Assembly: GCF_037996645.1 (NCBI RefSeq)
Contig: NZ_JBBMXV010000001.1
Span: 667,917-731,916, forward strand
Direction: 5' to 3'
Length of the DNA stretch: 64,000 bases
Source: Halalkalicoccus tibetensis
GTDB lineage: Archaea > Halobacteriota > Halobacteria > Halobacteriales > Halalkalicoccaceae
Of the stretch, positions 19,496 through 22,983 are shown in pieces (within the stretch, counting starts at the first letter, position 1; each line of letters opens with the position of its first letter). The notes below the pieces were generated by a model that was not told the DNA's origin, ran no database searches, and was given only the letters and a program-made list of their open reading frames with translations. The position numbers and the translations under genes are program-made.

Positions 19496-19510
19496 CGGCC
19501 TCAACGCTCG

Positions 19511-19550
19511 CGTGGATCGCTCCGGCGTGGATCGCTCCGGCGTGGATCGC
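19511..19550. repeat. Short tandem repeat, 15-bp unit
   Basis: The unit cgtggatcgctccgg occurs at 19511-19525 and 19526-19540, followed by a partial third copy (cgtggatcgc). It begins 15 bp after the stop of the winged-helix gene. No known function; probably slippage. Confidence 0.75.
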
Positions 19551-19767
19551 GGGTAGACAGTGGTAGCCGCTGCACCGAGAAACGGTTACTATCCGTCCTC
19601 CGAACGAACTCGACAGCTCCGGGTCTGTCGGTCTCATCGCTTCGGGCCCAGGATCGGGGAACGCTTCAGGGACCGTCGGGCTCGCGAATCGGGCCGTTCG
19701 TCGTCGATAGAGATATCATTCGTGCGAGATCATTACGTCGCTCGGTATCACCGCGCCCGCAGGTGCG

Positions 19768-21280: not shown

Positions 21281-21305
21281 CACACACACCGGGTTTCCGG
21301 TGAAA
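21281..21305 (-). repeat. ORB-like repeat copy 1 (inverted)
   Basis: Read on the minus strand this is TTTCACCGGAAACCCGGTG followed by TGTGTG. It matches the copy at 21674 over 25 bases but points the opposite way. The core resembles the haloarchaeal origin recognition box (TTCCA-type arm plus GGAAAC). Confidence 0.75.
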
Positions 21306-21673
21306 AACGCCCACGGGCGGGAGGGGGTTCGCCACCTGCCGACGAACGGGACGTCCTTCGATATGTAGATATATATACTAGGTTTGCGTCATAGTCCAGT
21401 AGCTGATTCGTCGAACGGGAGAAAGGAACGGTCGGTGATCGTCCTGGGGTTCGGACTGTCCATCGGAACCGTCGGGTTCTGGGTGCTATGAGTCGTCGAT
21501 GACGTCAAGTACTCGGGTTCGACGGTGCTCTTTCTCTGAGCCTTGGAGCCCCTTCACGAAGCCCCGTCGCGCGGCGTCGACGCGTCCACCCATCGTCGTT
21601 CCCCGGTCAGGCCGAGTAGCGTTCACGGCGGCAACCCCCGTTTCATGTGGACTTCACCCCGCTCTTCACCCCG
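21306..21673. other. Putative replication origin core with AT-rich unwinding element
   Basis: No gene is apparent between the two opposed ORB-like repeats. Bases 21359-21385 are strongly AT-rich (atatgtagatatatatacta), the expected look of a DNA unwinding element in a region that is otherwise GC-rich. Together with the adjacent orc1/cdc6 gene and flanking repeats this fits an archaeal origin. The rest of the interval has no clear structure. Confidence 0.65.
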
Positions 21674-21698
21674 TTTCACCGGAAACCCGGTGTGTGTG
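21674..21698 (+). repeat. ORB-like repeat copy 2
   Basis: TTTCACCGGAAACCCGGTG followed by TGTGTG, a perfect match to the inverted copy at 21281-21305. The pair face each other across about 370 bp including the AT-rich tract. Confidence 0.75.
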
Positions 21699-21721
21699 CG
21701 CCGGCCGAAACGCAAGCGCTA

Positions 21722-21743
21722 TTTCACCGGAAACGTGGTGTGG
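21722..21743 (+). repeat. ORB-like repeat copy 3, at the orc1/cdc6 start
   Basis: TTTCACCGGAAACGTGGTGT, a variant of the repeat with GT replacing CC after GGAAAC. It lies between a TATA-like gctattt (about 21717) and the ATG at 21747, so Orc1/Cdc6 binding here would be expected to affect its own transcription (inference). Confidence 0.7.
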
Positions 21744-21746
21744 TGT

Positions 21747-22940
21747 ATGGTCGAGACGGACGAGCTGTTCATTCGCGATGACCCCATCTTCGTCAACAAG
21801 GAGCTGCTGGAGATCAACCACCTGCCCGACGAGGGGCGGATCGTCGGGCGCGACGAGGAGATCAAGCTGCTGGCGAACGCGGTCAACCCCGCGATCTTCG
21901 GGCAGAGCCCGAGCAACATCCTCATCTACGGGAAGACCGGCACCGGCAAGTCGCTCTGTGCGAAGCACGTCTCCCAGCGGCTCGTCGACGCCGCGGGGGG
22001 CGAGGGCGTCACCGCCGCCTTCGCCTACGTCGACTGCGCCCAGGACACCACCGAGACCCAGGCCGTCCAGACGATCGCGAGCAGCTTCAACGGCCCCGAG
22101 ACCGACGTCAACGTCCCCGACAAGGGGATCAGCACCGCAACCTACTACAAACGGCTCTGGCGAATCCTCGACGAGAGCTACGACGTCGTGCTCATCATCC
22201 TCGACGAGATCGACAAGCTCGCCGACGACGCGATCCTCATGCAGCTCTCGCGGGCGGGCGAGGCGGGCAAGCTCACCGACTGCAAGATCGGCGTCGTCGG
22301 GATCAGCAACAAGATCCGCTACAAGGACCGGATGGACGAGCGCGTCAAGTCGAGCCTCTGTGAACGGGAGTTCGTCTTCCCGCCCTACGACGCCTCCCAG
22401 CTCGGCGAGATCATGGAGGCCCGCCGCGACGCCTTCCGCGAGGGCGTGCTCGACGGCGGGGTGATCCCGCGCGCCGCCGCCCTCGCCGCGCGCGAACACG
22501 GCGACGCGCGCAAGGCCATCGACATCCTGCGCTACGCGGGCGAGATCGCCCAGTCGACCGGCGCCGAGCGCGTCCAGGAGGGGTTCGTCACCGACGCGAG
22601 AAAGCGCGCCGAGACCGACCGCTTTCGCGAGCTCATCCGGGGCTCGACGCCCCACTCGCGGTACGTCCTCCACGCGCTGACGGTGCTCTCGCTCAACGAG
22701 CCCGGCACCGACGGCTTCCGAACCACGGCGATCTACGACCTCTACGAGGAGGTCTGCCGACAGGACGGCGCCGAGTCCCTCTCCCTGCGCCGGGTCCGCG
22801 ACCTGCTGAAGGAACATGCCTTCCTCGACATCATCGAGCAGTCGCGCCACAGCGGCGGCAGCGCCGAGGGCAGCTATACCAGACACCGGCTGCTCGAGGA
22901 CCCCGACGTGGTCCGGGACGTCCTCGTCGACGAGGTCTGA
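21747..22940 (+). CDS. Orc1/Cdc6 replication initiator
   Basis: 397-aa AAA+ origin-binding ATPase. Walker A is YGKTGTGKS (61-69), Walker B is ILDEID (about 151-156), sensor 1 lies in VVGISNK and sensor 2 in HGDARKAIDILR. The C-terminal winged helix (TTAIYDLYEEVCRQDG onward) binds ORB repeats. The start is the ATG at 21747 (MVETDELFIRDDPIF); the long upstream open frame runs through origin repeats and is not coding. ORB-like repeats lie on both sides, so it most likely serves its own origin. Confidence 0.95.
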   Translation: MVETDELFIRDDPIFVNKELLEINHLPDEGRIVGRDEEIKLLANAVNPAIFGQSPSNILIYGKTGTGKSLCAKHVSQRLVDAAGGEGVTAAFAYVDCAQDTTETQAVQTIASSFNGPETDVNVPDKGISTATYYKRLWRILDESYDVVLIILDEIDKLADDAILMQLSRAGEAGKLTDCKIGVVGISNKIRYKDRMDERVKSSLCEREFVFPPYDASQLGEIMEARRDAFREGVLDGGVIPRAAALAAREHGDARKAIDILRYAGEIAQSTGAERVQEGFVTDARKRAETDRFRELIRGSTPHSRYVLHALTVLSLNEPGTDGFRTTAIYDLYEEVCRQDGAESLSLRRVRDLLKEHAFLDIIEQSRHSGGSAEGSYTRHRLLEDPDVVRDVLVDEV

Positions 22941-22941
22941 G

Positions 22942-22983
22942 ATTCACCGGAAACCCGGTGTGTTTCACCGGAAACGTGGTGTC
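22942..22983 (+). repeat. ORB-like repeats copies 4 and 5, downstream of orc1/cdc6
   Basis: Two abutting copies: ATTCACCGGAAACCCGGTGT (22942-22961) and TTTCACCGGAAACGTGGTGT (22963-22982), one of each variant seen upstream of the gene. They begin one base after the orc1/cdc6 stop and lie in the 92-bp gap before menF. Confidence 0.75.

Follow-up and report, generated by a model that had tools for sequence, protein, structure and literature searches.

A putative Orc-dependent chromosomal replication origin of the oriCb family in Halalkalicoccus tibetensis

Haloarchaeal replication origins have been described as inverted ORB-like repeats placed around an AT-rich tract beside an orc gene (PMC3528665; PMC7776575). 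In the archaeal standard, a single Orc monomer with defined polarity occupies each ORB, and MCM recruitment is part of the plan (PMC7776575); inverted GC skew at haloarchaeal origins has been published (PMC2841640, Figure 2 legend). Some members of the oriCb family lie beside an rRNA operon (Hvo_orc5, Hbo_14700, and Hla_1524) and others elsewhere (Htu_5222, Hje_08365 of Halalkalicoccus jeotgali, Nma_3611, and Hxa_0635; Wu et al., 2012, PMC3528665). Replicons with published oriCb members include pNMAG01, pHTUR04, and pHALXA01, with one Orc each given for pNMAG01 and pHALXA01 in Table 1 of that paper (PMC3528665). Both oriC2-Orc5 of Haloferax volcanii (PMC7776575; PMC2841640) and oriC3-cdc6G of Haloferax mediterranei (PMC4595724) are reported as active origins. 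At oriC2 of Haloarcula hispanica, the 11 ORBs of oriC2D are reported to restrain the origin, likely by titrating Cdc6E (PMC3936714).

The window considered here is a stretch of 64,000 nt from H. tibetensis. An earlier note made from its sequence had proposed a replication origin beside an orc1/cdc6 gene, and this proposal is supported, since the orc gene, inverted repeats, and AT-rich tract fit the published haloarchaeal plan. The locus is very probably an Orc-dependent chromosomal origin belonging to the oriCb family as published, and would most likely serve the main chromosome as a second origin in addition to the conserved oriC1.

The initiator gene and its boxes

The oriCb-type orc1/cdc6 initiator gene occupies 21747–22940 on the plus strand and encodes 397 aa. 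The protein matches the Orc profile TIGR02928 (420.6 bits), has AAA, Cdc6_lid, and Cdc6_C domains, matches Orc1 of known structure from Sulfolobus and Aeropyrum (2qby_A and 2v1u_A), and is 95% identical to the Orc of H. paucihalophilus DSM 24557. No rRNA was found in the window, and the sole 16S found in the genome is on contig C3. Elsewhere in the window, a 15-base unit (gcgtggatcgctccg) is present in head-to-tail copies at 19509–19551, directly after a small gene.

The word TTTCACCGGAAACCCGGTG is found in five copies around orc, with 0–2 mismatches; of the three copies ahead of the gene one is inverted and two are direct, and the two behind it are both direct. Boxes 1 (21281–21305, minus strand) and 2 (21674–21698, plus strand), at the upstream and downstream edges of the putative origin, are exact reverse complements over 25/25 bases when read directly from the sequence, which confirms the facing repeats of the earlier note. 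Box 3 (21722–21740, plus strand, two mismatches to the 19-base word), a putative autoregulatory site, stops 6 bases short of the ATG of orc (21747). Boxes 4 (22942–22960, one mismatch) and 5 (22963–22981, two mismatches), both on the plus strand and after the orc stop, are 21 bases apart start to start and form a downstream pair, a putative Orc sink. The earlier note was right about a third copy at the orc start but, in counting three in all, missed this pair. The exact box word contains a 6-base dyad, CACCGG-AAAC-CCGGTG, the outer CACC...GGTG of which is its constant part among relatives. At its end, where a G-string is described for haloarchaeal ORBs (PMC3528665), it reads GGTGTG(TGTG), which is G-rich without the G run present at oriC1 of the same genome.

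At up to three mismatches the word has five matches in the window, against none in 100 dinucleotide shuffles. Throughout the genome (3.6 Mb in 15 contigs, 97% complete) the five locus boxes are the only matches at up to two mismatches, and the repeat is therefore not scattered, the point on which the earlier note had made its reading depend. Allowing three mismatches adds four scattered sites, against two for a reversed-pattern control; three are within long open frames and one is in an AT-rich stretch, and all four are taken as chance.

Between boxes 1 and 2 lies an AT-rich tract, a putative unwinding element (DUE; 21359–21385), whose 26% GC against 67% for the window bears out its earlier description. 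Wu et al. (PMC3528665) look for an orc/cdc6 gene whose product exceeds 300 aa and has both an AAA+ and a winged-helix domain, with an adjacent intergenic region, and for ORB-like repeats in inverted orientation on the two sides of an AT-rich element; the 397-aa Orc with its AAA, Cdc6_lid, and Cdc6_C domains, its adjacent intergenic region, and the inverted boxes around the 26% GC tract correspond to this description.

The genome has 14 tblastn matches to orc, representing about 13 genes. The window's word, at up to four mismatches, is absent from the twelve other orc loci between 1.3 kb before and 0.9 kb after the gene. All five of the other loci searched for repeats have different inverted words, TCCAGTCGAAACGAAGGGGTGGGGG at the oriC1-type orc and TTTACAGCGGCAATCCGGGG, TTTACTGGAAACAGTGGGG, TTTCACTTGTAACGGTGGTGTGT, and AACACTTGCACGGTGGTGGG at the remaining four. 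(The five loci with words of their own are covered by L109, L110, L111, and L112, on contigs C7, C5, C6, and C3.) Judged from these sequences, one genome would hold at least six putative Orc–ORB pairs. The suggestion of a distinct initiator–repeat pair thus holds within this genome, because the word is conserved together with this Orc family and five other orc loci bear different words, but the pair is not new, belonging as it does to the published oriCb.

Conservation and placement in the oriCb family

All six near-complete Halalkalicoccus genomes have exactly five sites (at up to two mismatches), ordered and oriented alike, and all six keep the 21-base pitch of the downstream pair; a seventh genome, 71% complete, has three sites. 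The upstream regions of five of the six were aligned, L107 being left out because it aligns poorly. Invariant columns make up 75/77 of the box stretches (24/25 in box 1 at 21281–21305, 25/25 in box 2 at 21674–21698, and 26/27 at 21720–21746), against 53/368 between boxes 1 and 2. A TATATA-like core of the AT-rich tract is seen repeatedly in the alignment of the genus, but conservation of the tract is poor, with 6/27 columns invariant in the five genomes. Two non-box stretches beside it, at 21390–21412 and 21433–21446 (around GATTCGTCGAA and GGTGATCGTC), also recur in several genomes of the genus, the first with just 9/23 columns invariant.

For a wider view, the best 80 of 153 candidate orthologous loci, from named genomes, were compared. 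In all of these 80 a plus-strand box is located 26–46 bases before the start of the tblastn match. The strict order minus...minus, plus, plus is found in 58 (at up to four mismatches), and in 37 the first 900 bases past the gene contain at least one box, with 87 plus and 13 minus boxes altogether. The consensus of 594 sites from these loci is TTTCACCGGAAAC-SY-GGTGTG, which is biased towards the window's word because the sites were gathered at up to four mismatches to it. Whether the AT maximum falls between facing boxes depends on its definition: the first gave a weak result (31/77, where the facing interval averages 0.30 of the length), and a second, picked after this result, gave 67/77 against 37.1 expected by length. 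Both definitions leave out four of the 81 sequences (the window plus the 80 loci), in which upstream boxes were too few. Within the class, the box word at up to one mismatch is found in 100 of 194 genomes, with none for the reversed control among the matches listed. A close Orc, at E up to 1e-190, is present in 97 of the 194, and the oriC1 Orc is found in 193 of the 194 genomes sampled.

Solitary boxes also occur in some relatives. In five genomes of one genus (L180–L184) a box TTTCACCGGAAATGCGGTGTG stands far from the orc cluster, in the same place (2001–2021), and is 21/21 identical even where its flanks differ (L183). Its neighbors on the two sides are a gene resembling, by eye, that for an AAA ATPase of Cdc48 type and, in convergent orientation, a peroxiredoxin-like one; the box could possibly be a remote Orc sink. 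Conserved variants, likewise solitary, remote, and in shared places (2001–2021), are TTTCACCGGAAAC(GT or CC)GGTCTG in four genomes (L187–L190) and TTTCACCGGAAAAGCGGTGTG in two (L191–L192).

The Orc is 81.3% identical to that of pNMAG01, 81.1% to that of pHTUR04, and 79.2% to that of pHALXA01, the last just under the approximate 80% family level, and boxes with 0–3 mismatches are found at all three plasmid loci. The plasmid Orcs were matched to the names in PMC3528665 by replicon and Orc counts rather than locus tags, and the shared ORB word is judged from these three loci rather than from the logo in that paper. The comparison thus reaches oriCb through named plasmids, with the Haloarcula hispanica cdc6E family and oriCa lying outside it. 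A literature search with the box word in the form CACCGGAAAC returned unrelated papers and has no bearing on whether the word was in print before. Of the best 80 of 153 loci, 13 have a 16S rRNA gene 1.3–2.5 kb after orc, in line with the published Haloferax subtype, 27 more run out at a contig edge within 4.9 kb, and no 16S follows in the other 40. With no rRNA operon after its orc, the window's locus is not of the rRNA-linked oriCb subtype, and Hje_08365 has also been placed in the non-rRNA one (PMC3528665). Together, the Orc identities, plasmid boxes, and 16S pattern place the locus in oriCb; on sequence comparison, its initiator is an Orc of the published family that includes Hvo_orc5, at Haloferax volcanii oriC2, and Hje_08365.

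Chromosomal setting and other readings of the locus

The earlier note had left the replicon as chromosomal or plasmid. In two relatives (G001 and G002) the orthologue is on one contig with an oriC1-type orc, of 2.81 and 2.58 Mb, at 0.50 and 0.42 of the circle from it, and because this contig is shared the locus would be a second chromosomal origin in both. The orthologues thereby decide for the chromosome, and a plasmid origin was set aside. The window's own contig (926 kb) is without oriC1, so the chromosomal location here rests on these two relatives.

GC skew over 100 kb around the window's locus is −0.001 to the left and −0.019 to the right. When about 100 kb on each side are searched, the 100-kb change that is most strongly negative falls at 689203, at box 1. 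With 60-kb spans and a search reaching 40 kb, G001 has its strongest change at 1545 kb, beside the locus, and G002 at 1655 kb, 25 kb off. A skew check that the earlier note had proposed thus finds a break at the locus in the window's genome and in G001 but not in G002. At oriC1-type loci the break is in the same direction and two to three times as strong.

Among the oriC1 matches listed, 23 chromosomes or large contigs carry both Orcs, with a mean circular separation between oriCb and oriC1 of 0.407 (the Haloferax volcanii value is taken from PMC2841640; G025, a 1.9 Mb contig, was left out). A p value over all of these means little, because 15 of the 23 are from one large family and probably share it by common descent. 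In the eight others the mean is 0.369 (range 0.20–0.50), with p about 0.009 only if they are independent, which they are in part. A tendency of oriCb to lie opposite oriC1 in chromosomes is therefore suggestive only.

The comparative weakness of the skew break would also suit a dormant or relict origin, in which boxes and Orc are intact and the site is normally silent, with oriC1 doing the work; a dormant origin reported in Haloferax mediterranei fires only once the others are deleted (PMC4595724). Against this, two of the three genomes show the break at the locus, the family's members in Haloferax are active origins (PMC4595724; PMC7776575), and all six near-complete genomes of the genus have near-invariant boxes and an intact Orc, which argues for present selection. 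Dormancy is unlikely on balance. It is decidedly improbable that the locus is a recently captured plasmid origin, the remnant of a megaplasmid integrated into the chromosome. The Orc family does occur on plasmids (39 records at 60–90% identity, 20 of them at 80–90% and 19 at 60–80%), but the locus has a molybdopterin oxidoreductase gene on one side and an isochorismate synthase gene on the other, in DNA with GC near the window average, and its downstream neighborhood is common to all six genus genomes aligned. An old capture is possible and would be compatible with origin function.

Least probable, and very much so, is that the boxes are mainly operators through which Orc acts as a transcription factor for its own gene and that for isochorismate synthase, with no initiator role here: box 3 adjoins the start of orc, 51 bases separate the end of boxes 4 and 5 from the likely ATG of the next gene (23033), and an Orc1-2 that regulates transcription and is not an initiator has been published (PMC9738581), but boxes 1 and 2, facing outward around the AT-rich tract, are left unexplained, the oriCb family includes proven origins (PMC4595724; PMC7776575), and at the three annotated plasmid loci the gene past the downstream boxes is convergent, so that these have no promoter there to control. 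The plasmid loci speak against a promoter role of the downstream boxes for the oriCb family as a whole; control of the isochorismate synthase gene by boxes 4 and 5 in Halalkalicoccus is possible.

Proposed mechanism and comparison with known origins

If the locus is an Orc-dependent origin, the Orc encoded at 21747–22940 would bind the TTTCACCGGAAAC-SY-GGTGTG boxes. Boxes 1 and 2 are oriented divergently on either side of the AT-rich tract, where MCM would be recruited and the strands would open, and the locus would fire through its own Orc. Box 3 covers the bases expected to hold the promoter of a leaderless haloarchaeal transcript, so that orc should be repressed or tuned by its product; the box probably autoregulates orc in this way, limiting its transcription. 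The tandem boxes 4 and 5 would soak up Orc, as is thought for oriC2D at oriC2 of Haloarcula hispanica, and by this analogy the downstream pair probably titrates it. Among the papers listed by a search on Orc autoregulation, none was recognized as reporting an archaeal initiator with an ORB at its own promoter; the one consulted on this point gives autoregulation of DnaA as a bacterial parallel (PMC3936714).

A broader and more doubtful idea is that oriCb is a portable, self-limiting cassette, with firing boxes, a clamp on the orc promoter in every copy, a downstream Orc sink in about half, and a selected spacing. Halalkalicoccus would then have the cassette in minimal form, its sink fixed at two boxes with a 21-base spacing (two helical turns), and a position of oriCb opposite oriC1 in chromosomes would mean selection on origin spacing.

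The locus adds a compact and cleanly conserved case of oriCb, with five boxes, one Orc, and nothing similar elsewhere in the genome, and offers a good minimal system in which to study how, in archaea with several origins, every Orc is held to the site that belongs to it. It also suits the question of whether orc autoregulation and titration, described for DnaA and for Haloarcula hispanica oriC2, are general. The placement of oriCb opposite oriC1 is a testable side result.

Among known systems, the published oriCb family is like this locus in its Orc (79–81% identity to the three plasmid proteins), its box word, and its inverted boxes upstream of orc. It differs in that the locus has only five boxes, one of them inverted, and in the adjoining rRNA operon of the Haloferax subtype. 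By way of oriCb, oriC2-Orc5 of Haloferax volcanii and oriC3-cdc6G of Haloferax mediterranei have the same Orc family; the Orc at the Haloferax loci is 80% identical to the window's and the word is the same, but unlike the window's locus they combine numerous inverted boxes with a nearby rRNA operon and have no box after orc. Haloarcula hispanica oriC2-cdc6E with oriC2D resembles the locus in having boxes on both sides of orc (PMC3936714), although oriC2D has 11 in 722 bases and the downstream pair here just two, a likeness drawn from the arrangement of boxes rather than from Orc sequences. The oriC1 locus of this genome (C3:159637–161130) follows the same general plan, with an inverted 25-base pair of its own, but its box word, TCCAGTCGAAACGAAGGGGTGGGGG, is another one and has a long G-string, and skew breaks more strongly at oriC1. 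By these comparisons the locus is a well-supported, ordinary member of an origin family already described in haloarchaea.
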